From positions 1-64,000 of the forward strand of contig NJBN01000008.1 of NCBI GenBank assembly GCA_005223185.1: 64,000 bases of DNA. Direction: 5' to 3'. Source of the stretch: a candidate division LCP-89 bacterium B3_LCP. Its GTDB lineage: Bacteria > Electryoneota > B3-LCP. Position numbers and translations under genes: made by a program. Below, in pieces: positions 7,196-56,032 of this stretch (the stretch's first letter is position 1; the number at the start of each line of letters is the position of its first letter). The notes beneath the pieces are model-generated. The model saw only the letters and a program-made list of their open reading frames with translations, made no database searches and was not told where the DNA came from.

Positions 7196-7337
7196 ATACA
7201 GATTCTGTATCGTCCGATCAGTTCGACGATAAGAAAAGAAGAAAAATCGAATGTAAGTTGAGAGGGCTTTGGCGCAGCATCGCACGCGCTGCACCACTCA
7301 CCTAATTACTACTTAATCCAACATGGGAGATGTGCGC

Positions 7338-10300: not shown

Positions 10301-11471
10301 CAATGCCGATGCCGCATTTGCCAACTTTGCCAACTATCCCATACCTTCGTGCATGGGACCGACTGGTTTGATTGCTGGATTCTGGGATGATTTGATTACC
10401 GGTTCAAACGGATACGTCTTTGCAAAGGATGACACAGAAAACCACCGTGTTATAATCGAATGGTCTCGCATGCGGAATATGGATGATACCTGGGTCAGAG
10501 AAACATTTGAAATTATTCTCTTCGATCCGGTTCATTACCCGACTCCTACTGGTGATGGCGAGATCCTCTTTCAGTACTATGACATTACCGAAACCAGTGG
10601 TGATCCGCAAGACAATCCCTACTCCACAGTGGGCATCCAAAGCCCGGATCATCAGGACGGTATAGAAGTCGTTTACTGGAATACTTATAACGATCCAACG
10701 GTGGCACATGTACAAAACGGTCGAGCTTATCTCTTTACTACCGACTTCGATTACACTCCACCTGGTGCTCCCGAGATGGTAGTAGAAGTTGACTATGTTT
10801 CCGGTTCGCCAGTACCTGCAGGTGGAGGTAACCTTTACTACGGCATCTGGGGTGAAAATCAGGGCACAACGGCCATTGATTATGACATCTGGATTGACAA
10901 GATTTACGAAAGTAGCGACACTACCACGCTTATCTTGCGTGAAATAACAAATTACCAACCCGGATGGCAAATCAACCGCCCGGACGCCTGGTATCCGATT
11001 CCTAGCAATTGGCCCGGTGGTAGCTATGAACTCCGAATCTATTCTGGGTGGCATCCGGAATACGACGTTTGGGATACAGATGCTTTCTCCTGGTCGAAGT
11101 CTGGTGCGGTTGACCTTGATTTCGACTTTGAAGCCAATCTACCTACATGCAGTTTCCCAGATCCGTTTGAAATAGTAACCGAGACGAAAACTGCAACGGT
11201 AATACCGACCGAGTATGAGCTGTTGAGTAACTATCCCAATCCGTTCAATCCGGTTACTAACATTAGTTTTGCTCTGCCTGAGGACGGTAAAGTAAATCTG
11301 GCGATTTACAACATATCCGGCGCCCTGGTGGAAACCCTTGTGGATGGACACAGAACAGCAGGCGTCCACGACGTGACATTCGATGCATCCGACGTGGCTT
11401 CTGGAATCTACTTCTACAAGCTGAATGTGGGTGATTTCAACGCCACCGGCAAGATGGTGCTGATGAAGTAA
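7338..11471 (+). CDS. Gingipain-like (peptidase C25 family) secreted giant protein with sorting domain
   Basis: 1377 residues from ATG 7338, chosen over ATG 7323 because GGGAG (7325-7329) gives a proper ribosome-binding site. Signal peptide MKIRQIMICLVVLLLGLTVAHA. Residues about 25-225 resemble the C25 propeptide. About 240-560 is a C25 core (GSYLIVCENN, VLLFGDTAGDYSLPG, VAVGRLPADDDYEA). The expected catalytic Cys is present as TITCDTGGF (Cys468), but the catalytic His of the family's GHG motif is replaced: NYRGYWGM (Tyr440). CARDB-like beta domains follow (PGETVELPLTFKNFG; LSPGETSDFVLEVGN), then a further beta-sandwich, and a C-terminal YPNPFNPVTNISFALP sorting module ending KMVLMK. Probably exported by type IX secretion. 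Proteolytic activity is doubtful given the missing His. Confidence 0.85.
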   Translation: MKIRQIMICLVVLLLGLTVAHAEYLQLRADVQDDRSQINVLQHDNNQVQIEVRLAGLELFEGALDGRNWDRVMIPGGGFNLELGCPEVPHFTRLLAIPDRSGARVEFEALETTVLTGIDLMPAQGVEPEEHEKHKTASSYDEGVYSQDALYPVIEAVTGEPAIIRGLRVIPVQMNPIRYNPVTGELHIIHRYKITIHFEGTDLRNVPQRPMRSVSRAWYRTMGNMIMNLDQQGLDEIKLGSYLIVCENNNNLVDNLLPALVDWKIRKGHTVAIETFSPGSSNNTIKNIIQNAYNTWEVPPEYVLLFGDTAGDYSLPGWSPDGIDHPYSQLDGGDILADVAVGRLPADDDYEAAVMINKVLFYEKMPYTANSDWYHQGCLVAGSSSGGFSSIMTNRWIKARMVDREYTRIDTFWHWMSGSVATTLNNAINDGVLYVNYRGYWGMENFTTSMINSLTNGRKLPFVVTITCDTGGFDGYSESFMERFSNVGSPTTPKGAIGAIGTATTGTHTKYNNTVADGIYAGIFDEGITQPGNALNRGKLEMYNAYQAHQSGTVENYSKWNALAGDPGLELFTHAIQYMECTIPTTVSWGENSLTLAVSETGVGALEDAVVCFYKEYDLHDVGLTDAAGQITLPLDLISAGNVKITITKQNFYPIVDSLDVVQAAVAVGYYDHSVDDDNNGTSSGDNDGIINPGETVELPLTFKNFGSSTTATSVSVTATESDDFATLGDDFETFPNISAGSTANSQDDLDIDIAADCPNGHVIQLILDTQTDQGSWDGLLELEVVSYDMMVRSAYATGSDTLLSPGETSDFVLEVGNIGDKTASSLSATVTSLSSYVTVNDDYASFGTVNVGVTATCSGNPFNLTASEETPPGFLANLEVVFTSSTGATQTDTITIALGVKTMNDPSGPDEYGYYCFDNSDYAYPKAPTYDWVEIDPSYGGSGFQLVIYDSYENDDMSITLPLPFTFRYYGEDVDVITVCSNGWISSNADAAFANFANYPIPSCMGPTGLIAGFWDDLITGSNGYVFAKDDTENHRVIIEWSRMRNMDDTWVRETFEIILFDPVHYPTPTGDGEILFQYYDITETSGDPQDNPYSTVGIQSPDHQDGIEVVYWNTYNDPTVAHVQNGRAYLFTTDFDYTPPGAPEMVVEVDYVSGSPVPAGGGNLYYGIWGENQGTTAIDYDIWIDKIYESSDTTTLILREITNYQPGWQINRPDAWYPIPSNWPGGSYELRIYSGWHPEYDVWDTDAFSWSKSGAVDLDFDFEANLPTCSFPDPFEIVTETKTATVIPTEYELLSNYPNPFNPVTNISFALPEDGKVNLAIYNISGALVETLVDGHRTAGVHDVTFDASDVASGIYFYKLNVGDFNATGKMVLMK

Positions 11472-11491
11472 AACTGATGGAAAGATGAAAT

Positions 11492-11523
11492 AATAAAAGG
11501 CGATTACTGAATCGCCTTTTATT
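11492..11523. terminator. Strong, bidirectional hairpin terminator
   Basis: Perfect 14-bp stem AATAAAAGGCGATT / AATCGCCTTTTATT with an ACTG loop. The A-run on one side and T-run on the other let it work on both strands: after the C25-like gene on plus and after the tRNA on minus. Confidence 0.85.
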
Positions 11524-11601
11524 ATGTGCAATATTAATTTCTACTTTCGCGGGGCTGGTTTATTCTTGATGAAAATAATTATTATCAGCCGCTCGCTTTT
11601 G

Positions 11602-11674
11602 CTCCTCGGGAGGGACTTGAACCCCCAGCCTAGTGGTTAACAGCCACCCGCTCTACCAATTGAGCTACCGAGGA
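11602..11674 (-). tRNA. tRNA-Asn(GTT)
   Basis: On the minus strand the 73-base sequence folds as a complete cloverleaf: acceptor TCCTCGG/CCGAGGA, D-arm GCTC..GAGC, anticodon loop CTGTTAA with anticodon GTT, T-arm with GGTTCAAGTCC, discriminator G. The 3' CCA is not encoded (next bases read CAA). The sequence closely follows the bacterial tRNA-Asn pattern. Confidence 0.95.
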
Positions 11675-11699
11675 AAGTAAACTAATTATTCTTGCTTTC

Positions 11700-11775
11700 T
11701 CAATTAAAGATTTGAACCCCCATCAGTCGGCTTAGTAATAACAGCCAGCCGCTCTACCAATTGAGCTAGTTAAGA
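11700..11775 (-). pseudogene. Decayed tRNA copy (tRNA-Asn-like)
   Basis: Just upstream of tRNA-Asn on the same strand lies a second tRNA-like sequence that keeps the D-arm block (AGCTCAATTGGTAGAGCGG), a GGCTGTTA anticodon region and GGGGGTTCAAAT of the T-arm. The acceptor ends no longer pair properly (TCTTAAC versus TTTAATTGA) and the anticodon stem is broken. It looks like a tandem duplicate of the neighbouring tRNA that has degenerated. Confidence 0.7.
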
Positions 11776-11906
11776 ATTCGCATAATTTAATATTTTTAAG
11801 TTCACTTGTCAAGTAAAGAAAGGAAAACTTACTTCAATGATTATTTTACATGCTTCAATAAATAATATATTGTTATAATATGAAACACAGTTATCTTGTG
11901 CTATGA

Positions 11907-11936
11907 AAAGAATGCTGGCAACTGCCAGCATTCTTT
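11907..11936 (-). terminator. Hairpin terminator of the IclR-type gene
   Basis: Inverted repeat AAAGAATGCTGGCA / TGCCAGCATTCTTT, 12 bases beyond the stop of the minus-strand regulator gene, with T-rich sequence following on the minus strand. Confidence 0.75.
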
Positions 11937-11948
11937 AAGTTGATTATT

Positions 11949-12731
11949 TTAGGGCTGGATATAACCGAGTCGCCGCGAAACTTCATCCGCAGATTTCTGT
12001 ACCAATTTTGCATATTTGGTACTGGTTGTTTTTGTACCGCGATGCGCTGGCCAGAAAATGTCGATCAATCCCACAATTTCGCCCGATTCGCCACGAACAG
12101 GAGCGGCCACATTGTTGATGTTCTCATCATCGATCTGGCTCTTGTCGTAGGCGTAGCCCGTTTCTCTAACTTGACCTAAGTCCTTGCGGAGCTGAGAAAA
12201 GGAATAGGATTTATCGTCCAGGACGGTTTTCCGTCCTTTGTCATCCATCAATTCCTTGATTTCACTATCAGTCAAGTTAGCGAGGAATACCTTCCCCGCT
12301 GCAGTCCTGGACAATGAAACGGATTCACCCAGGTGAGTACGTACCTGGACCGGTTTTGAGGTTAGAACCTCATCACATACAATCAGGCGCGCAGAATCGT
12401 GATCCGGGACGATAAATCTCGCCGATTCTCCGGTTTCCTCTACTAATTTATCCAGGAAAGGCGCGACTGTTTTTGTTGGGCTTACATTGTTTAGAACTCT
12501 GCGTGAAATTTCAAATAATTTGAAACTCAGGCGATAACGCCCCTTCCGCTGATCCTGTACAACGTATTGCTCATGAACGAGTGTTGTGCAAATCCGGTGA
12601 ACGGTACTTTTATTCATATTTACGCGATCACCGATTTCGGTCACTCCCAAACCTTCGACTTCATCAGCAAGAACATCCATGATAGCCAGAGATTTGATGA
12701 GAGACTGTACTAAATGATAAGTTGGTGCCAT
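11949..12731 (-). CDS. IclR-family transcriptional regulator
   Basis: 260 residues, start supported by AGAGAG upstream on the minus strand. The N-terminal winged helix (about 8-70) reads LVQSLIKSLAIMDVLADEVEGLGVTEIGDRVNMNKSTVHRICTTL, the standard IclR HTH pattern. The C-terminal effector domain (about 80-255) contains SARFIVPDHDSARLIVCDE, the SRTAAGKVFLA motif and APVRGESGEIVGLIDI. IclR proteins bind a small organic acid or aromatic ligand and usually repress nearby catabolic genes. Here no catabolic operon is adjacent, so the target is unknown. It stands alone between the tRNA and the repeat protein gene. Confidence 0.92.
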   Translation of the reverse strand: MAPTYHLVQSLIKSLAIMDVLADEVEGLGVTEIGDRVNMNKSTVHRICTTLVHEQYVVQDQRKGRYRLSFKLFEISRRVLNNVSPTKTVAPFLDKLVEETGESARFIVPDHDSARLIVCDEVLTSKPVQVRTHLGESVSLSRTAAGKVFLANLTDSEIKELMDDKGRKTVLDDKSYSFSQLRKDLGQVRETGYAYDKSQIDDENINNVAAPVRGESGEIVGLIDIFWPAHRGTKTTSTKYAKLVQKSADEVSRRLGYIQP

Positions 12732-12889
12732 TTTCTCTCTCTTCTCTTAGATTAGATTTAATTAATTTTATTTATCTGATAGATATAATATATTAAAATT
12801 AAATTAAGAACTCAAGTACTTATTTTAAAATCTATTTTACCAAAAAAGTTTTCTCTGTAGCATAAAACTTGCAATATATCTAATAGAAT

Positions 12890-12912
12890 GGGGCGCTGTC
12901 TGGCAGCGCCCC
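12890..12912 (-). terminator. Hairpin after the repeat-protein gene
   Basis: Perfect 9-bp stem GGGGCGCTG / CAGCGCCCC with a 5-base loop, 9 bases beyond the minus-strand stop. The T-tract is poor (ATTCTATT), so termination may be weak. Confidence 0.55.
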
Positions 12913-12921
12913 GAAAAACTC

Positions 12922-15900
12922 CTATTTCAACAGCACAATTTTTTGTTGCTGTGTTTTGCTTTCAGCTTCAAGTTGCACTAAGTAGAGACCAGACGCAAAC
13001 CCATTGGCATTCCAGCTAATTTGCTCAATGCCTGCCTGACGCCATCCCTCTTCGACAACATCTACTAATCTGCCGGAAATATCATAAATCGCGACTTTGA
13101 CGAAAGCCGGTTTCTGCATTTCCAACAGAAATCTTACCTCAGGGTTGAAAGGGTTGGGATAGGGTGTATGAAGTTTAAAGGCAAATGGCACTGTTTCCCT
13201 ATCACCCTCAGGCGCAATACCCACTTCATAACCATTCAGACGCTGCATGTACAGATCGACAACTTCTTCCTTGCCTGATGCACGCTTGTCAAGCCAGATA
13301 CAGATCATTCCATCCGATCCGTCATTCACAGCAACGGGGTTTGTCTGTTTCTGGTAAGCATCGTTCATTACATTGCCATCCTCAACCCAGACAAATTCAT
13401 CTTCAAGATTCCCATTGGCATCGAGGTGCACGCCATAGATGTCAGAGCTTGGAACCTGCCGGAAATCTCCCCAGACAGTGTAACTTCCACCCAATCCATC
13501 GGCGATAATATAGGGACTTGCCTGATCACCAACCGCTCCGCAAAATATTATCCCGTTGGGGTCGAAGAGGAAATTGCCATTCACGTCCATTTTCTGAATA
13601 TACAGGTCTGTATTTACACCGCTGCGGTAATCTTCCCAGATGATATAGTAGTTTCCCGCACCGTCAGAAGCCCAGTCTATAGATGACTGGTCGTTAGCCG
13701 CATCGCACAGTACACGCCCATTAGGTTCAAATTGAGGAGTGCCACTGGCGTCAACCTTTTGAACGTATAAATCCCTGGCGCCATCACGCTCATCTTCCCA
13801 AAGGAAGATAGCTCCATTTATGCCTAAACTGATTACGCGGGGATTCAATTGATGGTCAGTTGTGTCACAAACGACAATTCCATCAGCGCCCCAAACCAGG
13901 TTCCCAGTTCCATCCACCCACTGAGCGCCAATGTTGAAGTCTTCTGAACCATTTTCATAGCAGATATAAGCGCCCCCCGCGCCATCAGAAGCCATGTCTT
14001 TTAATTCATCGTCGTTATCGGTGTTGATTATTTCAACCGACCACTGAACAGTGCCTGAATTATCCAAACGTGCTGCACTCACATGCGAAAGATACCAGAT
14101 GTTGTATTCACCCCAGGCAGTTACTACACCACCACCGCCGTCTTCGACGACTTGAGGCGTATTCTGTGCTCTGATGTATTCTGATACGTACACACCTGCT
14201 GGTTCCCAGTCTAAAGAACCATTAGCATCGATCTTCTGTGCATAGATCTGAGATGAAGCAGAATTACTGTCCCGGTGATCCTCCCATACTGCAATGGCGC
14301 CTGTGCCACCATCACTGCAGGCATCGACCCATTCCTGTCCCTTTACCTCTGTGTATTCAGGATTGGGACAGATTCGTTCGCCGCCGTCATCCAGATAGGT
14401 ATTTCCATTGCCATCGACAATCTGCATAAAAGCAGCAGCGCCGGCAGTGCCATCACGCTGATCTTGATAGAAGATGAAAATTTTGCCATCATTGTTATTA
14501 ATTAGTACGGGATTCTCAGCATTCCCGGAAATCCCCCATACCAGTGTATCCCCATCCACCGCCAGAGTCGGCGTACCAGCCGTGTTATCAAGCTGTTGAT
14601 ACCAAATCCCTTTGGAGCCGGTTCTCTCATCAGCCCAGGCTAAGAAGGAATAATCCGAAAAAGCGCGGATCAAAGGCTTTTCCTGCAAACCGTCTGCCTG
14701 GCATACCGGCATACCTCCCTCATCCGCTGCTGTCCAGAGAGTATGACCTTCAGAATCCAGGCGCTGGGCAAAGATGTCAGTTGTCGTGGCGTTTTCCCAA
14801 CTGCATACTGCGCCGCCAGTTCCGTCTGCGTTGGCCCGAGCCTGTCGCTGGTTTTCCTGTGCACCGGATTCGGTACAGACGGGCATACCTTCCGCATCCC
14901 AGAGCAGGGTGCCGTTTGCATCAACTTTCTGTGCGTAAATATCGTTTTGCAGAGGGTCATTACGCGTATCCAACCAGATTATGATAGCGTTACCTGAACC
15001 ATCAGCAACAATACGCGGTTCAATCTGATTCTGTGCGAGGGTGATTAACGGCTTGCCCTGCGGTTCGGGGAATGCCATCGTTCCGTTGGACAACACGTGA
15101 TGGAAGTAGAGGTCGCCATCAGATCCTTCGCGTTCATCTTCCCAGACAATGTACGCTCCGTCAGCGTCGTCAGGACACAATTTCGGTGAATTCTGATGTC
15201 CTGTCGTATCGCAAACCGCTACACCTTCCGGATCCCAGGCGACTATGGCATCCATAGTGACATGCTGAATAAATATATTATTTAAAGTATTTTGTGGGTT
15301 GATATTATCCATCCAGCCCACCAAAGCGCCGCCTGCTCCGTCAGTATCCACGGTCAGTTGCCGCTGTCCACCGGAAGAGCGCTTGACTTCCAAACCATCC
15401 GCAGGCCATTCGGGCGGAATCGTTCCATCAGCGGTTACCCTGATTGCGTATATATCACCTTCATTACCGTTGCGCAATTCGTTCCATAAAACAACTGCGC
15501 CACCTTCGGTATCAGCGACAATGCGGAATACCGCTGGAGAATCGAAATCGCCAGTTGAAAGCAGATAACCTTGCGGAGCCCACTGGACTATACCATTGGC
15601 ATTAACTTTCTGTGCGTACAGGTCGCCTTTTTCCGTGTCGTTGCGGAAATCATTCCAGATGAAGATGAAATCACCGTTAGTGGTAGGAATCAACGCTGGG
15701 TCTTCTTGACGCCCCGGAGCGCTGACTATTTGTACTCCTTCATTGCCCCACAAGATATTTCCATTGGAGTCAACCCGCTGTGCATAGACGTCGCGGTCGC
15801 CAAAGCGCGTATCCGACCAGGCATAGACTACGCTGCCATCGGACGTCTTCTCTGCCGCACGTTGCCATTCAATATGATAGCCCTGTCTGACGGAAACCCC

Positions 15901-15996
15901 TTCAGAATCCCACATCATAGGACCGATATCTCCACTGGCGGTCATAAAGCTAATTGCCAACAGAACTGTAACCCCCAAGCAGTAACGCTTCCTCAT
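12922..15996 (-). CDS. Secreted repeat protein (about 16 repeats) with T9SS-type sorting domain
   Basis: 1024 residues from the ATG at 15996, preferred over the ATG nine codons upstream because AAGGA lies 9 bases before it. Signal peptide MRKRYCLGVTVLLAISFMTASG. The body is about sixteen imperfect repeats of roughly 50-60 residues with core D.YAQKVDANG...W...G..VC....Q..P....DG.GG....WED.R.G. Examples are DVYAQRVDSNGNILW, DIYAQKVDANGTLLW and DLYVQKVDASG. The spacing suggests a beta-propeller or a stacked beta solenoid. The Asp/Asn-rich turns could bind calcium, which is inference. The C-terminus LHTPYPNPFNPEVRFLLEM...QKIVLLK is a sorting module. Likely cell-surface adhesin or structural protein; no catalytic motif seen. 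Confidence 0.8.
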   Translation of the reverse strand: MRKRYCLGVTVLLAISFMTASGDIGPMMWDSEGVSVRQGYHIEWQRAAEKTSDGSVVYAWSDTRFGDRDVYAQRVDSNGNILWGNEGVQIVSAPGRQEDPALIPTTNGDFIFIWNDFRNDTEKGDLYAQKVNANGIVQWAPQGYLLSTGDFDSPAVFRIVADTEGGAVVLWNELRNGNEGDIYAIRVTADGTIPPEWPADGLEVKRSSGGQRQLTVDTDGAGGALVGWMDNINPQNTLNNIFIQHVTMDAIVAWDPEGVAVCDTTGHQNSPKLCPDDADGAYIVWEDEREGSDGDLYFHHVLSNGTMAFPEPQGKPLITLAQNQIEPRIVADGSGNAIIIWLDTRNDPLQNDIYAQKVDANGTLLWDAEGMPVCTESGAQENQRQARANADGTGGAVCSWENATTTDIFAQRLDSEGHTLWTAADEGGMPVCQADGLQEKPLIRAFSDYSFLAWADERTGSKGIWYQQLDNTAGTPTLAVDGDTLVWGISGNAENPVLINNNDGKIFIFYQDQRDGTAGAAAFMQIVDGNGNTYLDDGGERICPNPEYTEVKGQEWVDACSDGGTGAIAVWEDHRDSNSASSQIYAQKIDANGSLDWEPAGVYVSEYIRAQNTPQVVEDGGGGVVTAWGEYNIWYLSHVSAARLDNSGTVQWSVEIINTDNDDELKDMASDGAGGAYICYENGSEDFNIGAQWVDGTGNLVWGADGIVVCDTTDHQLNPRVISLGINGAIFLWEDERDGARDLYVQKVDASGTPQFEPNGRVLCDAANDQSSIDWASDGAGNYYIIWEDYRSGVNTDLYIQKMDVNGNFLFDPNGIIFCGAVGDQASPYIIADGLGGSYTVWGDFRQVPSSDIYGVHLDANGNLEDEFVWVEDGNVMNDAYQKQTNPVAVNDGSDGMICIWLDKRASGKEEVVDLYMQRLNGYEVGIAPEGDRETVPFAFKLHTPYPNPFNPEVRFLLEMQKPAFVKVAIYDISGRLVDVVEEGWRQAGIEQISWNANGFASGLYLVQLEAESKTQQQKIVLLK

Positions 15997-16270
15997 GGTT
16001 TTATTCCTTATTTTATTTGACATAGATTCTACGTTTTACCAACACGAAAGTTTCTAAAGAACCGGACAGATGCATCTTTTGCAAGTGAAAGAAAATCGTG
16101 CTTGGAAAAACTTCAATTTAATGCATTTGTTAACATAACGCAAGAGATATGCCTGAAAAGTTAGAACATTTCCGAATGAGAAATGGTTTGCATACTAACT
16201 TAGAGTTTTTTATCTTAGTTCAAGGATATACATTGGCGTTCAAACAAATGCAGTGCGAATTCTGATCTAA

Positions 16271-29252: not shown

Positions 29253-30701
29253 ATGAAAATACTGCTGCTTCGACCTGATTCTGAAGTTTACACTTCCACG
29301 CCTCCGTTGGGATTACTCTCCCTTGCTTCTTACTTTAGGGAGAGAGGAAACCACTTAGTGGAAATCTTTGACGGGCGCGCTAAAGCTGCGACTATAGCGC
29401 AGATTATCGAAGAAGTGCATCGTTTTCAGCCGGATGTGGTTGGAATCAGTCTCTTCGCTATGGAGCGCCTTGAAGGACACGAAGCAGCGCATGAAATAAA
29501 GAAAGTTTTCCCTGATGTTACCATAATCTGCGGTGGAGCTTATCCTACCACCGAATTAAGAGAGACCCTTTCCAATCCAGCTATCGACTTCGCCGTCGAA
29601 GGCGAAGGTGAAATCAGCGGTTTGGAACTATTGAAGGCTATTGAAGGTGATTCACTGCCAGAAACCATGCCAGGTGTAGGTTGGCGGAGAGATGGGAAGA
29701 TTGTAACCCCGCCATCACAGCCATTCATCGAAGATTTGGATCAACTGCCGCAGCCGGCGTGGGATCTGCTGGACCTGGAATCGTACTTTTACAACCAGCA
29801 TAAACCCGCCCCCATGAACCTCTACCAGAAGAACCCGCGATCAGCGCCGATTATTTGTTCGCGAGGTTGTCCCTACCGCTGCACATATTGCCACAAGCTG
29901 TTCGGTAAAAAAGTGAGACGGCATTCAATTAAATATATTGTCGATCAAATCAGTTATTTACACCACGAAAAAGGGGTAGAAGAGATCGAAGTGGTGGATG
30001 ATATATTCAACGTCGATCCAGAATGGACCAGGGATTTTGCGTTGGCAATCAAGGAACGCAATCTCAAACTGAACTTCAGCTTTCCTAACGGTTTGCGTGC
30101 CGACCGCATGACAGAAGAGATTATTGATGATTTAGTTGATATCGGTACTTATAGAGTTGTTTACGCTATTGAAACCGGTTCCCCCAGAGTACAGAAGGCG
30201 ATTCGCAAGAACGTGGATCTCGATAAAGCCCGCAAGTATATCGAATACACCGCTAACAAGAAAATATCCATTGGCGCATTCTTCATGATAGGGTTTTTAG
30301 ATGAAACCGAAGAAGAGATGAAACAGACTATCAATTTTGCCTGCAGTAACAGGATCAGCACCGCATCATTCTTTATATTGACGCCTTTCCCGGGTACGGA
30401 AGTCTATGAACAGGCTAAGGAACGCAACCTGCAGGTTGAGGGAGCTAATTATACACATTATTATGCCTTGAGCGCCAATCTCAGTAAAGTGCCAGAGAAG
30501 AAACTGCTGCGTCTGCGGTTGTTCGCCTATCTGCGCTTCTATGGTAATCCTTTCAGGCTGGTCAGAATGTTCAGGACGACGCCGGTTCACAGTTACTTCT
30601 TCAAAACCCTATGGACGGCATTTCTGTACTTTGTGATTTCGCCAAAAAATAAGCCGCGCCGGGATATTTCGGACTTCCTCACAATCGAAAAAGAGACTTG
30701 A
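29253..30701 (+). CDS. B12-binding radical SAM protein (BchE-like)
   Basis: 482 residues. N-terminal cobalamin-binding Rossmann domain (about 1-140: PPLGLLSLASYFRERG, VVGISLFAMERLEGHE, IICGGAYPTTELRE), then a radical SAM barrel with the cluster motif CSRGCPYRCTYCHKLFGKK (CxxxCxxC) near 208 and VDDIFNVDPEWT, YAIETGSPRVQKAIRKNV. Members are often methyltransferases or ring-forming enzymes on lipids, carotenoids or bacteriochlorins; the substrate here is unknown. The neighbourhood (GT39 upstream) hints at an envelope lipid or glycan. It overlaps the frame of the next gene at its stop. Confidence 0.9.
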   Translation: MKILLLRPDSEVYTSTPPLGLLSLASYFRERGNHLVEIFDGRAKAATIAQIIEEVHRFQPDVVGISLFAMERLEGHEAAHEIKKVFPDVTIICGGAYPTTELRETLSNPAIDFAVEGEGEISGLELLKAIEGDSLPETMPGVGWRRDGKIVTPPSQPFIEDLDQLPQPAWDLLDLESYFYNQHKPAPMNLYQKNPRSAPIICSRGCPYRCTYCHKLFGKKVRRHSIKYIVDQISYLHHEKGVEEIEVVDDIFNVDPEWTRDFALAIKERNLKLNFSFPNGLRADRMTEEIIDDLVDIGTYRVVYAIETGSPRVQKAIRKNVDLDKARKYIEYTANKKISIGAFFMIGFLDETEEEMKQTINFACSNRISTASFFILTPFPGTEVYEQAKERNLQVEGANYTHYYALSANLSKVPEKKLLRLRLFAYLRFYGNPFRLVRMFRTTPVHSYFFKTLWTAFLYFVISPKNKPRRDISDFLTIEKET

Positions 30702-30718
30702 TGGATTTGACAGGTGAT

Positions 30719-31645
30719 ATGAAAATCCATAAGATAGAATTCAGTCAGATTCTGGACTCTGCCAGAATGACTGAATTCTGGAACAGAGCATTTGTATCGT
30801 TGCTGTTCACCGCAGTAATTTTGCTGGTTGCATCCTCCTGTAAAAACGAAGACCAATTCCTGCTGCCGACGCCTGATCCCATTATTGTGGAAGACCAGGT
30901 GTTGGTGCCAGCCGGAGAAGTCGTATTGGGGAATGATCCGGAAGGTTGGGGCAATTACCAGCTTGCAGTGGGTCTAAACCCCGTGTATTTAGATTCCTTC
31001 TACATAGACCGTTTTGAAGTTTCCAACCAGCAGTATGCCGACTACCTGACGACGATGTGGAATGCCGGGCTCATATACATGACCGGTCCTGGCGACGTTT
31101 ATCAGGACATAACCAATTATCTGTTAATCGAGATAACTTCGGAAGATTGTCCCATAAGATACAACTCCTCAGTTCAGGGGTTTGAGGTTGAGGTAGGATC
31201 TGAGGAATTGCCTGTAGTAATGGTAACCTGGTATGGAGCATCCTTCTACGCTCAATATTACGCCAAACGTCTGCCCACCGAATCCGAATGGGAGAAAGCC
31301 GCTCGGGGAGTAGTTGACGTTTTCGGTACTGTGGCTGGAGTAGGAGTCGGTTATCCCTATCCCTGGGGTGACGCCATCCCCACAGAATCGCTGGCTAACT
31401 TCGGTGATATAATCGGCAGTCCGGTGGATGTCGATTCCTATACCGCCGGCATGAGCTGGTTCGGAGCTTTCAATATGGCGGGTAACGTGCGGGAATGGAC
31501 TGCTACATCCATCGGTGGAGCTAAAATACACCGGGGCGGCAGTTTTCTCTCATCTGCAGACCTTCTGAAAACCGCCATGCGCACCTTCTCTGACCCCCAA
31601 ACCACCGATAAAACCATCGGTTTTCGGTGTGTGGTGGATATGTAA
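30719..31645 (+). CDS. SUMF1/formylglycine-enzyme-fold lipoprotein
   Basis: About 308 residues; the start is uncertain (30701, 30719 or 30767). The lipoprotein signal FVSLLFTAVILLVASSC gives lipobox VASSC. Starting at ATG 30767 would give the most typical signal length, but that ATG lies inside a palindromic repeat. The body has the FGE/SUMF fold: VPAGEVVLGNDPEGWG, FYIDRFEVSNQQYADYL, LPVVMVTWYGASFYAQYYAKRLPTESEWEKAARG, MAGNVREWTA and TIGFRCVVD. The copper-binding Cys pair of true formylglycine-generating enzymes is absent (GGSFLSSADLLKTAMRT instead), so I expect a non-catalytic, sugar- or protein-binding surface lipoprotein. Last gene of the GT39 operon. Confidence 0.82.
   Translation: MKIHKIEFSQILDSARMTEFWNRAFVSLLFTAVILLVASSCKNEDQFLLPTPDPIIVEDQVLVPAGEVVLGNDPEGWGNYQLAVGLNPVYLDSFYIDRFEVSNQQYADYLTTMWNAGLIYMTGPGDVYQDITNYLLIEITSEDCPIRYNSSVQGFEVEVGSEELPVVMVTWYGASFYAQYYAKRLPTESEWEKAARGVVDVFGTVAGVGVGYPYPWGDAIPTESLANFGDIIGSPVDVDSYTAGMSWFGAFNMAGNVREWTATSIGGAKIHRGGSFLSSADLLKTAMRTFSDPQTTDKTIGFRCVVDM
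30737..30778. repeat. Palindromic repeat inside the 5' coding region
   Basis: GAATTCAGTCA(GA)TTCTGG pairs with CCAGAATGACTGAATTC, a 17-bp stem with a two-base GA bulge. The same core with the same bulge recurs at 54359-54400 and 61177-61217, both intergenic. Here it is translated as part of the N-terminus of the SUMF-fold lipoprotein. Confidence 0.75.
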
Positions 31646-31735
31646 GATTTCTCACAATACCTGCATATATCGACATATAATACCTCCTGCACACAATCCC
31701 TGAATCCTTAAAAAATCAAAAAATAATAATTTCAC

Positions 31736-31764
31736 TTGATTTTTAATAAATCTTGTTGTATATT
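31736..31764 (+). promoter_or_regulatory. Sigma-70-type promoter for the kinase/receiver operon
   Basis: TTGATT (31736-31741), 17 bases, TATATT (31759-31764). The start codon of the kinase follows after about 50 bases of leader. AT-rich surroundings. Confidence 0.55.
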
Positions 31765-31820
31765 ACGCAACAAAACTGTTTTCAGGTTCTATTAAGAATC
31801 CTAAATCCAAGGGTTACGGA

Positions 31821-34301
31821 ATGCCGATAGTTTATAACAAAAATTTTAGGAAGATAGAAGTTCCGGATGAAAAACTGTACTGTATAAACTGCGGTGAACA
31901 ATTCATGTTTACCCCGGATGAAGAGCTTTTCTTACGTTACCGCCATCCCGCTCAGGAATGTCCAGGAAAAATTAAAGAAGGTGAAGATGGCGAAGATGTT
32001 AAAGAATGCGGTTATGAATTCCACACGTTCGCGGACTACTTCGCGGCTGATAAGTTTTTCAAAGAAATTGCCAGCACCGGTGCTAAGCGGATTTTTAAAC
32101 ATATAGTTACAGGTCAATGGTTTGTGCACTTTATTTTCAAGGAAACCAAGCCGATAACAGAAGTTAAGTGGACTACACTTTTTCCCAAGGAGGTTTTACA
32201 ACTCTGGTCAACCGGTATGACCGAGGAGACTGGGACCGGGATTCACATTATAATTCCCGAGCGAGTAGTAAACCCTGGTTGTTTTCAAGAGATATTGGGA
32301 AGCGAGTTCTCTTCTGTAAAACCCGCCAATCAGAGTACTTACCTTCATAAAGCCTGTAATAAGACAGCCGGAAAGAATAATATATTCTGCAGCGTCTGCC
32401 GCCATTTTGAATACTCTTGGGCTGAAAGACTGGGTGAAGATGCTCCATATACTGCCGGAATTTGTGCAGATCGAGGCATACACTGGATATTCCCTATCTG
32501 GGTGGAAAAAATCCTTATGGGAGTGATTACTGGCGGCGCCGTCAGGTATTCCTCAGAGGATGAAGTAATTGAGCTCGCAAAGCAGTTGACATCAAATTAT
32601 GATTTTTCAGAATATTTAGAAAAGTCGCGAGAACGTATAAGCAAGATGTTTGAATTCATCAGTGAAAAGACTGCTAGATTAAATGAAGAGTTCAGTAATT
32701 CATCGGAAGGTGAGATTCGAAAGGAAATAGGGCAACTACAAGATTGGCTGAACAGCTATGAACAAAAGAAAGAAGGATTGATTTACCTGGATTCTGTAAC
32801 CAATTGGTTATTCAATGCAAAAGATCCTACTATAGATGCAGAAGTACTTTCAAATATTGAGATTGAACTTTCACTGAGAGATAAATCCACGTTACCGAAA
32901 GTTAGAGATGGTAAATACAAACAAGCGAGCAATCACGTTGAGAAGATAAAAGAGGTAACCAGAGAAAGCTATAGAGCAAAAGAACTGCACGTTGACAATG
33001 AACTGTTGCATGAGGTTTCCTCGTTGTACGAACAGAAACATGATGCTTTAGTGGATCTAAATTGGTGCTGGGATAGAATAGAGCGTGTTCTAACACATGT
33101 TTTGAGATACTTGGGTATTGATTTTGCTGTAGTTCTTTCGAATGAGAAAATTGAGAATGTTTTAGAAGTTAAGAAATTTGTCTGGAAATCAAAGAGTACC
33201 GATGAATTTATTGATCCTGACAAAGCGGAAATCGGGACAAACAGAAATCTAGTGAAGTTTTTTCAGCAGTCCCAGGAGATATTCTTCCCCAAAGTTATGC
33301 GGAAAAACAAACTGTATAGTGGTTCACCGATGTCTATTCGAGAGACTTTTAGAACTATACTTAGAAAAGAGAATAGAAACAGCAAGGTTATCGCTGCTCT
33401 ACCATTCTCCATGTCCACCAATATGCGTGAGAACAAGTGGGCGGTTGTTTTGTTATTCTGTAAACAAGATAATATAGATTTTGATAAAAGGACCTGGATT
33501 TATAGTCGGATATATCGCAGGTTACAGGTCATGTTTAATTTTGTCAGATCGGAAGAACAGTTGAACGAATATATAGGCAGTTTGGATCATGAGATATTAA
33601 AACCCATTTATGGGATTGAATCGTGTAGGAATTATTTAATTAGAAAGGTAGAATGGAAATTATTTGAAGGTGTTGATCCTTATTCTGAGCGTCTGCTAAA
33701 GCGTAATTTGGGATTTATAAAAGATTATACAAAAACCTTCGAATTGATAACGAAGAATCTTCTGGCTACTCGCACCGAGAAACCCATATATAAACGCTTC
33801 CGATTATATGAAGAGGTGATAGAACCCATCATGAGATTACATGGGAGAGAATACGGAGTAAAACGGATCAAAATTGATATCGGAAACGTTAAAGAAGCCG
33901 GAACTATGGAAGCTTCATTACCGGATCTATTCCAGGTCTTTAACAATGTCTTTTACAACGCAGTTAAATACTCATGGCGAAATACAGTAATAAGATTGCA
34001 GTATGAACTTTTACCGCAATCTCATAAACCTTCAGGTCAACAGCTTCATCTATCTGTTAGAAATCAAGGATCTGAAATACCGTTGGAGGAGGAAAAAACC
34101 ATCTTCCTTTTCGGAGTTAGAGGTTCCGAGGCTAGATCCAAAGACGTAAAGGGAATAGGATATGGATTACCTGCATCCCGTACTATTTTGAGGAGATTGG
34201 GAGGAGAAATTTGGTTTAGGAGAAAGAGCCCTACAAATGTCATAGAATTTCATTTTAAATTTCCTGTATTAACCGTAAAGGAGAAGAAAAATGGGAAGTA
34301 A
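31821..34301 (+). CDS. Cytoplasmic histidine kinase with zinc ribbon and PocR-like sensor
   Basis: 826 residues, no membrane helix. An N-terminal zinc ribbon (about 18-60: CINCGEQFMFTPDEE, then CPGK...CGYEF) resembles the zf_trcl type. Residues about 150-260 hold a Cys-rich sensor (KACNKTAGKNNIFCSVCRHF, YTAGICADRGIHWIFPIWVE) like a PocR domain, which binds small ligands or metals. A long helical region (280-400) and a GAF-like stretch follow. The H-box is LDHEILKPIYGI near 586, the N-box NNVFYNAVKYS near 706, then VRNQGSE and GIGYGLPASRTILRRLGG. The G1 box has NQG where DxG is usual. It overlaps the first receiver gene by 11 bases and heads a four-gene operon that looks richer in A+T than its surroundings, suggesting transfer. 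Confidence 0.78.
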   Translation: MPIVYNKNFRKIEVPDEKLYCINCGEQFMFTPDEELFLRYRHPAQECPGKIKEGEDGEDVKECGYEFHTFADYFAADKFFKEIASTGAKRIFKHIVTGQWFVHFIFKETKPITEVKWTTLFPKEVLQLWSTGMTEETGTGIHIIIPERVVNPGCFQEILGSEFSSVKPANQSTYLHKACNKTAGKNNIFCSVCRHFEYSWAERLGEDAPYTAGICADRGIHWIFPIWVEKILMGVITGGAVRYSSEDEVIELAKQLTSNYDFSEYLEKSRERISKMFEFISEKTARLNEEFSNSSEGEIRKEIGQLQDWLNSYEQKKEGLIYLDSVTNWLFNAKDPTIDAEVLSNIEIELSLRDKSTLPKVRDGKYKQASNHVEKIKEVTRESYRAKELHVDNELLHEVSSLYEQKHDALVDLNWCWDRIERVLTHVLRYLGIDFAVVLSNEKIENVLEVKKFVWKSKSTDEFIDPDKAEIGTNRNLVKFFQQSQEIFFPKVMRKNKLYSGSPMSIRETFRTILRKENRNSKVIAALPFSMSTNMRENKWAVVLLFCKQDNIDFDKRTWIYSRIYRRLQVMFNFVRSEEQLNEYIGSLDHEILKPIYGIESCRNYLIRKVEWKLFEGVDPYSERLLKRNLGFIKDYTKTFELITKNLLATRTEKPIYKRFRLYEEVIEPIMRLHGREYGVKRIKIDIGNVKEAGTMEASLPDLFQVFNNVFYNAVKYSWRNTVIRLQYELLPQSHKPSGQQLHLSVRNQGSEIPLEEEKTIFLFGVRGSEARSKDVKGIGYGLPASRTILRRLGGEIWFRRKSPTNVIEFHFKFPVLTVKEKKNGK

Positions 34302-34779
34302 TAATGGAGGTCACATATACTTCATAGATGATGATATCATCGACATGGAGTTCGCTATTTCACTTTTGAAAGACGACGGCATTGAAGTCACTTCACATGG
34401 ATTTCTAGCGGACGCTTTTCCTTTTTTACGTTCGGACAATGCTAAGGATATAGACGTTTTTGTAGCAGATTTTGCCATTGCTTATGGACAAGTGGATAAA
34501 GATCAACCAAAGGAGGACACCTTCACTGCCGGTGAGACGGGTAATGGTAGATACACAGGTGCCAGGTTATTAAGAGCTATTAGGAATGGTGAAAGAAACA
34601 TCAACGTAAATCGTAGTGTGCCTGCAATATTCTACACCAATCTTCGTTTAGATCCTGAAATACATAGACTTGCAGAGGAATTAAAAGCAAAAGTATGTCT
34701 GAAATTAGAAGGTGGGTACAGTGAATTATATCAACTGATCACTGGATTTCTTAGAGAGAAGGAGGATAAAAGTGAGTAA
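34291..34779 (+). CDS. Stand-alone atypical receiver protein, copy 1
   Basis: 162 residues, RBS AAGGAG inside the end of the kinase gene. CheY-like landmarks: IYFIDDDIIDME (acidic pocket Asp13-15), DIDVFVADFAIAYG with Asp60 as phospho-acceptor, FYTN with Thr116 and KVCLKLEG with Lys138. Thr to Lys spacing (22) equals that of CheY, but Asp to Thr spacing is 56 instead of about 30, so about 26 extra residues lie after strand 3 (VDKDQPKEDTFTAGETGNGR region). There is no output domain. It presumably accepts phosphate from the kinase upstream and signals by protein contact. Paralogous to the next gene. Confidence 0.75.
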   Translation: MGSNNGGHIYFIDDDIIDMEFAISLLKDDGIEVTSHGFLADAFPFLRSDNAKDIDVFVADFAIAYGQVDKDQPKEDTFTAGETGNGRYTGARLLRAIRNGERNINVNRSVPAIFYTNLRLDPEIHRLAEELKAKVCLKLEGGYSELYQLITGFLREKEDKSE

Positions 34780-35257
34780 GGCACAAGGTTTACATGTGTA
34801 CTTTTTAGATGATGACCTGTCTGACATGGAGATCACAATAGCCTTTTTAAAGGAAGATGGAATTGAAATCACAGCGCATGATGTTCTGGCAGACGCCTTT
34901 CCTTACTTGCGTTCGAGCCGTGCAACTGAGATAGATGTTTTTGTTGCTGATTTAGCTTTCGCATATGGAAAAGTGGATAAAGATCAACCGGATGAGGATA
35001 CTTTCACTGCCGGTGAGACGGGTAATGGTAGATACACAGGCGCCAGGTTATTAAGAGCTATTAGGAATGGTGAAAGAAACATCAACATAAATCGTAGTGT
35101 GCCTGCAATATTCTACACCAATCTTCGTTTAGATCCCGAAATACATAGGCTTGCAGAAGAATTGAATGCAAAGGTGTGCCTAAAATTGGAAGGTGGGTAC
35201 AGTGAACTATATCGTCTTATCAATGGTTTTCTCAGAGATAAGAGAGGTGAGAGATGA
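34772..35257 (+). CDS. Stand-alone atypical receiver protein, copy 2
   Basis: 161 residues from a GTG start with AAGGAGG upstream, overlapping copy 1 by 8 bases. Landmarks match copy 1: VYFLDDDLSDME, Asp59 in VADLAFAYG, Thr115 in FYTN, Lys137 in VCLKLEG, and the same insertion of about 26 residues. From the TFTAGETG codons to the LRLDPEIH codons the DNA is almost identical to copy 1, while both flanks have diverged clearly. This points to tandem duplication with later gene conversion. Two receivers for one kinase suggest a branched or phosphate-sink arrangement. Confidence 0.75.
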   Translation: MSKAQGLHVYFLDDDLSDMEITIAFLKEDGIEITAHDVLADAFPYLRSSRATEIDVFVADLAFAYGKVDKDQPDEDTFTAGETGNGRYTGARLLRAIRNGERNININRSVPAIFYTNLRLDPEIHRLAEELNAKVCLKLEGGYSELYRLINGFLRDKRGER

Positions 35258-36102
35258 AGAAATTACAAAAAACATCCACGTATGCTTCGTTAGGTTTAAT
35301 ATTTGCTTTTATGCTGATCGCTTCCATTTATTGGAATATTCAGAATAGTTCTCTGTTGTCAAATAGGGAAGAAGACAATCCTAAAATTACTACGGTTACA
35401 AGGAAGAATATTCTCAAAACTTGTCCCGATCAGATAATGGTGGATTCGTTACAGGTGACCACTAAAGAGACAGCTTCGAACGATTTTAATAAATGGACTT
35501 TACTCATTAGCAAGAATACTGAACTTGTTAATACTGTAAGCGTTGTTCTTGTATTAGGAACGCTATTCATAGCTGTAGTTAGCCTAGTGTTTTTTCTCCA
35601 AATACATAAGATAGAAGATTACGTTGATAAGGAGATTGAGAAACGCATGCATAAGGCTACCGAATACAGTCTTGAAATGAACAAACGTATTTTACACGCA
35701 GCTAGTTTGCAACTGACAATGATGCAACATTATAATGAATTGATATTTGTGGCGAGTAAGCCTACTGATGAATCTTCTGATGACGTTAAGATAAAAATTA
35801 AGAGTGCTCAACTCTTTGAACGGTCTATGAGAAAATTTGTTGAAAGGTTGAAACATCACCGTTCCCAGTTCCTTCTCCTGTCCCAAACAGAGAAGGAGAT
35901 CAACACAGGTATCCACAATCTAAAAGGAATACCACTTGATCGTGGTTCTGACCTGGAGTTGATAGAATTTGTTGTCAAAACCTGGGAAGAGTATCATCCA
36001 AAAAAGTTTAAAAAGATCGATGAGTCTGCTGTCAAACGCATCTTAAAGGGTTTGAGAGAGCTGAAGAAAGAAATACATCAAGAACTGCGCAATAAAGCGT
36101 AG
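35254..36102 (+). CDS. Membrane protein of the kinase/receiver operon, unknown family
   Basis: 282 residues, ATGA overlap with the second receiver gene. Two hydrophobic helices: about 12-31 (LGLIFAFMLIASIYWNI) and about 93-117 (VSVVLVLGTLFIAVVSLVFFL), with roughly 60 residues between them that would be periplasmic. A long, charged, helical cytoplasmic region (about 118-282) follows and could form a coiled coil (IHKIEDYVDKEIEKRMHKATE). No known domain recognised. By context it is the membrane input or output partner of the soluble kinase and receivers. Base composition looks AT-rich, like the rest of the operon. Confidence 0.7.
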   Translation: MKKLQKTSTYASLGLIFAFMLIASIYWNIQNSSLLSNREEDNPKITTVTRKNILKTCPDQIMVDSLQVTTKETASNDFNKWTLLISKNTELVNTVSVVLVLGTLFIAVVSLVFFLQIHKIEDYVDKEIEKRMHKATEYSLEMNKRILHAASLQLTMMQHYNELIFVASKPTDESSDDVKIKIKSAQLFERSMRKFVERLKHHRSQFLLLSQTEKEINTGIHNLKGIPLDRGSDLELIEFVVKTWEEYHPKKFKKIDESAVKRILKGLRELKKEIHQELRNKA

Positions 36103-36116
36103 TGCCCCCCGAATCT

Positions 36117-37016
36117 CTACTTCTCCCCCCACCACAGATAATAGGTCGCCAACCCGCGGTAGGGGCGCCAATTCTCTGCTATTTTAAGCAGTTCATCTTC
36201 AGTGGGTTTGCGGGAAAGTCCGTAAGCCCTCTTCACTCCGTTCAGCAGTCCCGCATCACCCACCGGCAGGGTATCCCATCGTCCCAGACCGCGTATAAGA
36301 GCATATTCCGCCGTCCAGGGACCGATTCCGCGCATCTTTACCAGTTCTCGGGCAACTTCGGCGTCGGGCAGCTTTCCTAATGCTTCCAAGTCGAACCCAT
36401 CCTGTATCTTTTCCGCCAAACCAATGATATATTCCGCCTTGCGCCGCGAGCACTTGAACTCCCGCCATTCATCGGGATCAAGACCGCATATTTCCGCTGG
36501 CATGGGGTAGTGATAGAAAGTATGCCCATCTACATTCCAGCGTCTGGCGAATCTTTTCAGCATGCCCTCTTTCACCTGGCAGGCAAACCGCAGGTTGACC
36601 TGCTGACCGATGATAGCCCAGGTTATCGTTTCGAACAGATCCGGTTCCAACACCGGTCTAAGCCCTCGGTTCTTCAGACAGATTGCATGAAGCGTGGGAT
36701 CACTTTTAACCATCTCGTAAAAATCCAGCAGATCCAGATCAAGACAGAACGCCTTTCTGATCTGTGCTTCGCAAGACGTCAAATCTTCAGCCGTCAGTTC
36801 TGGCGCTTCCATAGTTAGCCCCAACTGCGGGCGTTCAACGGTTCCTTTCGATTCAATGCTGATCAAGCAGGAGCTGCCGTTATTCATCGGCCAAACGCGC
36901 CGGAACACCTTTCCGTCAAAATGCACTATGGGATCCGGACGATTTGGGCTCAAATAAGCGAAGGAAAGATCGAAGTCGTACGGTGAAGTGGGACTAAGTA
37001 GGATTTCTTTACGCAT
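36117..37016 (-). CDS. alkA: DNA-3-methyladenine glycosylase II-like (AlkA)
   Basis: 299 residues from ATG 37016, preferred over an ATG 19 codons upstream because the extension has no family character. The N-terminal AlkA_N-like domain (LSPTSPYDFDLSFAYL) is followed by an HhH-GPD domain: FETITWAIIGQQVNLRFA, the helix-hairpin-helix LVKMRGIGPWTAEYALIRGLG, and the catalytic Asp in DTLPVGDAGLLNGV. It excises alkylated purines from DNA, starting base excision repair. It is convergent with the receiver operon, only 14 bases from it, and no terminator is seen between them. Confidence 0.88.
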   Translation of the reverse strand: MRKEILLSPTSPYDFDLSFAYLSPNRPDPIVHFDGKVFRRVWPMNNGSSCLISIESKGTVERPQLGLTMEAPELTAEDLTSCEAQIRKAFCLDLDLLDFYEMVKSDPTLHAICLKNRGLRPVLEPDLFETITWAIIGQQVNLRFACQVKEGMLKRFARRWNVDGHTFYHYPMPAEICGLDPDEWREFKCSRRKAEYIIGLAEKIQDGFDLEALGKLPDAEVARELVKMRGIGPWTAEYALIRGLGRWDTLPVGDAGLLNGVKRAYGLSRKPTEDELLKIAENWRPYRGLATYYLWWGEK

Positions 37017-37186
37017 CGGTTCTCTTTGAAGAATAAGATGTGTACATAAATTCACTGAAGCTTCAATATACAAAAGAACGCCGATCTTTCCCAGGATGTA
37101 AAGTAAAATTATTCAAATTCCCCTTGCTTTTATGTCGTACTTTATGTATATTAAGATAAACCGTATCCGAATTATCCTAAATCATC

Positions 37187-54836: not shown

Positions 54837-55541
54837 TCACAAGCCACTGATGGGCAAATAGTCTAAACCAATTTCCATGTCGCTCTTGAAGCACCTCATT
54901 ACTTTTCTTGATAATCCTTCACCACAACGTGCTGCTACATAATTAACATATTTCGTGGTAGATGTCTCATCCTTTAAATCGAGTGATAAGAAGGATCCGA
55001 TAGACTTATCTTCGACATAGTGCTTATATTTATAAGCCTGTTCCAGGACTTTAAAACCCATTGTTTGAAAAAACTGTGCCGCATCTAATGACGTAGAGGC
55101 AATCATATAACTCGCTTGCAAGGTCTTCGCAAGTAGCAACCGATACCAATGAATTGCAGCAGCATATCCACAATGTCTGAACTCGGGAAGGACTGACAGA
55201 GCTGATACCTCACATAAAGACGTTTCGTCAGCGAAGAACTTAGACAAGCAAATACTAGATGATACTCGAAATCCCAAGTCACCAGGTTTCCAGATCAATC
55301 GCCCTGCGCCCACTAATTTATCTTTAAGAAATAGACCAGCGTAGTGTGAAATTGAATCCCATGAATCTTGTATAGTGCTGATGTCGTCATCAGTGCGAGT
55401 AGTCATTGTGCGTAACTCCGCTAATTCTTTTACAAAGACGTGATATTGTATTTGCAGGGCGGATGTTATTTCGTCAACTGTGCGCAACAGACGTACTTCG
55501 ACATCGTTATGAGTAACATTATTGATATTTGTTCCATTCAT
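54837..55541 (-). CDS. GNAT-fold N-acyltransferase-like protein
   Basis: 234 residues from ATG 55541, placed 11 bases after the stop of the membrane-protein gene; the longer frame to 55616 would overlap that gene. GNAT features: IQYHVFVKELAELRTM, VGAGRLIWKPGDLGFRVSSS, CEVSALSVLPEFRHCGYAAA with the RxxGxA CoA-binding turn, and FFQTMGFKVLEQ. The layout recalls the N-acyl amino acid synthase or acyl-homoserine-lactone synthase branch rather than plain acetyltransferases, but the match is only to the fold. Substrate unknown. Second gene of the cassette. Confidence 0.7.
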   Translation of the reverse strand: MNGTNINNVTHNDVEVRLLRTVDEITSALQIQYHVFVKELAELRTMTTRTDDDISTIQDSWDSISHYAGLFLKDKLVGAGRLIWKPGDLGFRVSSSICLSKFFADETSLCEVSALSVLPEFRHCGYAAAIHWYRLLLAKTLQASYMIASTSLDAAQFFQTMGFKVLEQAYKYKHYVEDKSIGSFLSLDLKDETSTTKYVNYVAARCGEGLSRKVMRCFKSDMEIGLDYLPISGL

Positions 55542-55552
55542 TCTGATGCACG

Positions 55553-56032
55553 TTATTTTCTTAATAGGAATAGATTGCCAATCAGGGGTACCAATACCAA
55601 CAGGCCGAACCACCAAGATAAATGAAATGCAAGAGCTACCCAGGCAATAGAAAAGGTATAAACACAGAAATAGATTAAAACAGTCACAGTCAATCCCAAG
55701 AAATTACTACTAATTCCTAATTGTACAATTGACTCACCTTTTCCTATTATCTCTTCTGTTAATACAATGCGTTCTGTAGCGAGGCTTACTAGATTCGTAA
55801 ACACTATTGCGATTATTAAACCTATCAGCGGATAGATATAATATAGAATATTATCTAATTCCCTCCCTCTACTGATATCCTCCAATAAAAGCCGTGGCAT
55901 GTAGGACACCAATAGACCAGATATCGCTAGATAGGTGGCAAAGTACTGCCAGCGTCTCGAAACAAGTGCTAGTTGATAGTCGTATAGTTTTTCGAGGCGT
56001 GTAGGATTGATTTCATGACGAGTGGAGGCCAT
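55553..56032 (-). CDS. Four-helix membrane protein, unknown
   Basis: 159 residues, ATG with GAGGAA upstream. A charged N-terminus (MASTRHEINPTRLEKLYDYQ) precedes four hydrophobic helices near 29-48 (YFATYLAISGLLVSYM), 63-86 (ILYYIYPLIGLIIAIVFTNL), 106-128 (FLGLTVTVLIYFCVYTF) and 132-155. I recognise no family. Small multi-helix proteins of this shape act as effectors or as anchors for a partner enzyme. It is co-transcribed with the acyltransferase-like gene inside the TIR-bounded cassette. Confidence 0.7.
   Translation of the reverse strand: MASTRHEINPTRLEKLYDYQLALVSRRWQYFATYLAISGLLVSYMPRLLLEDISRGRELDNILYYIYPLIGLIIAIVFTNLVSLATERIVLTEEIIGKGESIVQLGISSNFLGLTVTVLIYFCVYTFSIAWVALAFHLSWWFGLLVLVPLIGNLFLLRK

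Follow-up and report, generated by a model that had tools for sequence, protein, structure and literature searches.

A probably foreign and somewhat unusual two-component operon in a candidate division LCP-89 bacterium

On what does a two-component system act when its receivers carry no output domain and a membrane protein is encoded beside them? The question arises from four genes in the 64,000-nucleotide stretch of contig NJBN01000008.1 of candidate division LCP-89 bacterium B3_LCP (the window). The genes occupy positions 31821-36102 on the plus strand. Their open reading frames overlap by 11, 8 and 4 nt, exactly as a first-pass annotation of this DNA had described, and form a single operon:

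31646..31820, plus strand: AT-rich upstream gap, which must hold the promoter (from sequence; a promoter scan of it does not rise above chance)
31821..34301, plus strand: soluble histidine kinase, 826 aa (Pfam HATPase, PocR and zf_Tbcl matches; catalytic positions)
34291..34779, plus strand: REC1, stand-alone receiver, 162 aa (receiver profile; Foldseek with a weak model)
34772..35257, plus strand: REC2, stand-alone receiver and paralogue of REC1, 161 aa (receiver profile; 77% identity)
35254..36102, plus strand: orphan protein with two transmembrane helices (2-TM protein), 282 aa (hydropathy; low-confidence model)

The ribosome sites of the last three genes are strong and purine-rich (aaaggag for REC1, gaaggagg for REC2, agagaggtgag for the membrane protein) and sit within the preceding gene, which is consistent with translational coupling; the 4-nt overlap of REC2 with the membrane protein gene likewise implies coupled expression. 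The single promoter that had been proposed at 31736-31764 does not survive scrutiny. It is a 9/12 match, and since shuffled DNA yields more such matches (14.0 +/- 4.0) than the region itself (11), it counts for nothing. On the other side, an AlkA-type glycosylase gene (36117-37073; HhH-GPD, E 8e-13) runs convergently, its stop lying 14 nt from that of the fourth gene.

The operon is foreign to its surroundings in composition. The AT-richness first noticed by eye is borne out by a GC profile: at 38.6% the operon falls below every one of 630 windows of equal length drawn from 395 kb at 20 places in the same genome (mean 46.2%, sd 2.1, minimum 39.5%). Four relatives belonging to the same family keep the AlkA-Rrf2-Mrp-MnmA-NifS block, and all four are missing the operon. 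Relative G003 also has the glycosyltransferase and etf genes found ahead of the operon in the window, and its interval from glycosyltransferase to AlkA holds one unrelated secreted-protein gene only. A search with the kinase at E 1e-15 matched 0 of 38 other genomes of the phylum. Horizontal gain, already suspected in the first-pass annotation, is therefore well supported, both by a GC content below that of all sampled windows and by insertion into a syntenic block of operon-free relatives; gain in this lineage is a simpler reading than loss in the relatives. Near the operon we found no insertion machinery, adjacent tRNA, long flanking direct repeats or Rfam element. Between the glycosyltransferase and the operon lie genes for a B12-binding radical SAM enzyme and an FGE-sulfatase-domain protein (29253-31645), which have no counterpart at the corresponding G003 site. 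The GC content of the FGE gene is normal, so that these genes either entered separately or were lost in G003.

The sensor side of the operon is composed of recognizable parts. The kinase shows no evident membrane helix, and its domains are arranged as a zf_Tbcl-type ribbon (residues 16-63), PocR (about 130-275), linker helices, a probable GAF domain (about 420-575), a putative DHp region with H590, and HATPase (702-815). The HATPase is clear (Pfam E 3e-12), with N, G1, F and G2 boxes at 707, 746, 761 and 778. The other Pfam matches fall short of their cut-offs: PocR (PF10114) scores 21.0 bits on a fragment against a cut-off of 23.9 (E 3e-4), and zf_Tbcl (PF13451) reaches E 3e-3 on a fragment. 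The PocR region is, however, also found by a profile made from 26 PocR domains. Its cysteines C179, C193 and C215 align with cysteines in 26/26, 25/26 and 24/26 of these, and P225, I226 and G239 match the P-I / G motif; on the strength of the profile match, the aligned triad and these three residues we take the predicted domain as real. At the N-terminus, DEKLYCINCGEQFMFTPDEELF can be aligned with small zinc-ribbon proteins of the zf_Tbcl-like kind encoded in several genomes and has the C-x-x-C-G-x-x-F-x-F-x-x-x-E core of the family. The second CxxC pair of zf_Tbcl is absent, C47 and C63 being 16 apart, which makes the ribbon zf_Tbcl-like and no full member. The cytoplasmic kinase with zinc ribbon, PocR and HATPase that had been described is thus upheld by fragments, profile and alignments together. 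To that description we add the GAF domain, which we read by eye and regard as probable, and a clear H-box (HEILKP, H590), seen by eye at the expected place between PocR and HATPase; neither GAF nor HisKA is matched by Pfam in this protein.

How ordinary is such a kinase? A locus from another phylum (L055:4516-7119) encodes a PocR-GAF histidine kinase of 712 aa, followed by a stand-alone receiver of 137 aa and a dgkA-like membrane gene. It shares with the present operon a soluble PocR sensor, GAF, kinase core and adjoining output-less receiver, and the kinase-plus-receiver half of our operon is therefore ordinary. What sets the operon apart from that locus is the zinc ribbon fused at the kinase N-terminus, present in 0 of 42 PocR open reading frames examined, together with two divergent, insertion-bearing receivers and a 2-TM partner.

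Searches for closer relatives came back empty. The kinase (residues 1-580 and 1-290) found no specific homologue in 386 genomes spread over families, and the N-terminal matches that were aligned proved to be small zinc ribbons or chance. The receivers found no specific homologue in 61 and 386 genomes; among the candidates from that search, two real matches were generic receivers of hybrid kinases and one was noise. The 2-TM protein had no homologue in the 386 genomes, and nothing specific to the operon appeared in plasmids, phages or viral contigs (IMG/VR). Short exact peptide patterns from the receivers returned nothing specific across 84,980 species, in scans that need exact matches of 7-8 residues and so miss distant relatives. 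The parts are of known types, and the whole four-gene set has no relative among the searched genomes, plasmids and phages. We take this to mean that the operon is rare or diverged, not that a recurring system is disproved; the link between the membrane protein and the signalling genes is known from this single genome.

The two receivers are divergent enough to escape Pfam, Response_reg being unmatched in either even at E 1. A profile that combines receivers of this genome with those of relative G001 recognizes both, its score being reached by 0/2000 shuffles of REC2 and 4/2000 of REC1. In hhalign the alignment is colinear over beta1-beta4 and opens a gap of some 22 residues past the phospho-Asp, where the receivers have an insertion after D60. 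The catalytic set (D13/D14, D60, T116, K138) is complete in both. The AlphaFold model of REC1 has a pLDDT of 41 and is usable for secondary structure only; with this weak model the six best PDB matches in Foldseek are all response regulators. Profile and Foldseek agree with the original description of stand-alone receivers lacking an output domain. In this they resemble CheY/Spo0F/DivK-like regulators, which are also receiver only, keep the catalytic residues and are expected to act by protein contact; they differ from these in the insertion of about 22 residues and in being too divergent for the Pfam family.

REC1 and REC2 are also paralogues, 77% identical, a relation that the first-pass annotation missed. 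Their likeness is unevenly distributed, and one segment is nearly the same in both:

34531..34662, plus strand: gene-conversion tract in REC1, codons 81-124 (3 nucleotide differences in 132)
35012..35143, plus strand: gene-conversion tract in REC2, codons 81-124, the partner copy (same comparison)

Elsewhere the two genes differ at about 1 position in 3.7, and the length of the tract at two or fewer differences was equalled in 0/5000 shuffles. Outside codons 81-124 dS is 1.28 and dN 0.20, whereas dS inside is 0.065. High dS outside and low dS inside point to an old duplication followed by partial homogenisation through gene conversion, over a segment reaching from the last part of the insertion across alpha3 and beta4. 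The dN/dS of about 0.16 between the sisters indicates that purifying selection has kept both functional.

The fourth product is the least familiar of the set, with no relative in Pfam, NCBIfam, PHROGs or PDB. Hydropathy supports the two membrane helices previously ascribed to it, as two hydrophobic segments (TM1, about 7-30; TM2, about 88-117) separated by a loop of about 56 residues on the outer side (about 31-87) and followed by a cytoplasmic helical tail of about 165 residues (about 118-282). By the positive-inside rule the topology is probably N-in. Its AlphaFold model has a pLDDT of 52, rising to 72-79 around the membrane helices only; it too is usable for secondary structure only, and a Foldseek search with it is meaningless.

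The tail contains HNLKG-x5-G at 221-231, with a glycine at +10 as in HPt domains, a spacing found in about 0.02% of 20,000 shuffles; we picked out this motif only in hindsight. The HPt profile (PF01627) nevertheless gives a score that 586/2000 shuffles equal, hhalign aligns 12 columns only, and Pfam Hpt is unmatched even at E 10; we set the HPt domain aside, keeping the motif as no more than a lead, and the multi-step phosphorelay proposed earlier finds no support in these tests. A full relay from kinase to REC1, to an HPt-like H221 in the tail and on to REC2 would account for two receivers, which a relay requires, and the low-confidence model does put helices at the motif, but with a proline following the motif and an unexceptional profile score we hold this reading to be very improbable.

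The reading that we prefer, at roughly even chances, is that of an imported two-component cassette in which the kinase signals to two receivers that work through protein contacts, the simplest partner being the tail of the 2-TM protein. The predicted ligands of PocR, according to the passage of PMC1592074 that cites Anantharaman and Aravind (2005), are simple hydrocarbon derivatives or growth substrates. Here the cysteine triad, perhaps with the zinc ribbon, would sense a small ligand, a metal or a redox change, and the signal would travel through the helices and the GAF domain to the kinase core. H590 would then be autophosphorylated and its phosphate very likely passed to Asp60 of either sister receiver. 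Lone receivers are thought to act mainly through protein contact (archaeal survey, PMC5847659), and the lack of an output domain suggests the same of REC1 and REC2; the simplest target of the phosphorylated pair might be the helical tail that the co-translated 2-TM protein extends into the cytoplasm, and this protein may anchor or change something at the membrane. What we infer here of ligand class, phosphotransfer, receiver contact and the role of the 2-TM protein draws on family knowledge for the earlier steps and on gene order for the contact with the tail, a contact that the predicted structures are too poor to model.

Receivers of this kind may instead act on host partners encoded elsewhere, like DivK and MrrA, with the 2-TM protein serving on the input side, where it would recruit or gate the kinase as its anchor or co-sensor. 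The kinase is soluble and has no membrane anchor of its own, the outer loop of the 2-TM protein could sense, and lone-receiver hubs are known (PMC5964349). The genome itself yields 55 receiver matches, so that a signalling network is present. A foreign cassette would nonetheless require compatible partners in its host, and the kinase already has two or three sensor domains; we regard this alternative as possible but rather unlikely.

Unlikely, too, is a defensive or stress-triggered membrane effector under two-component control, in which the zinc-ribbon/PocR kinase would drive the receivers to switch the coiled 2-TM protein directly, without transcription (or, less likely still, a membrane-anchored HPt phosphorelay). 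In Detocs, DtcC joins a receiver to PNP or to some other effector. Detocs is a three-gene family of defensive two-component systems (PMC11249213) and offers a precedent for a mobile-looking, self-contained operon of kinase and receivers. By analogy, the kinase would sense phage infection, one receiver would buffer the signal and the other would convert the 2-TM protein to an effector that damages the membrane. The sporadic occurrence of the operon, its foreign composition, its self-contained layout and its two receivers fit such a role; a weak PADLOC match, to the HATPase alone, points the same way. Against it, the operon fuses neither receiver to an effector, lacks PNP and every other known effector, has another sensor and carries an extra membrane gene. 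PADLOC, NCBIfam and PHROGs detect nothing in it beyond a generic HATPase. The immediate neighbourhood shows no defence genes, and PocR and the zinc ribbon make a metabolite-type sensor. We therefore consider a Detocs-like role quite unlikely.

Should the 2-TM protein prove to be the output, the operon would offer phospho-signalling as a small and portable module that acts at the membrane and bypasses gene regulation. Its receivers, which have stayed distinct though partly homogenised, would then lend themselves to the study of how receiver paralogues evolve. Should it not, the operon would be one more orphan two-component system from an under-sampled phylum.

Some features of the surroundings deserve mention in their own right. 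In G001, a few genes past AlkA (L011:16213-18970), we noticed by eye open reading frames resembling a PLD-like nuclease and a DNA methyltransferase, which suggests a neighbourhood that may vary and bear defence genes. A second AT-rich patch of the window (54837-56032, minus strand; GC 0.39-0.41) encodes a 159-aa protein that Pfam does not match and, next to it, a FeeM-like N-acyl amino acid synthase/GNAT (FeeM, E 5.5e-5). At 7323-16023, C-terminal Por secretion (type IX) sorting domains are carried by two proteins, a gingipain-type C25 peptidase of 1382 aa and another of 1033 aa.
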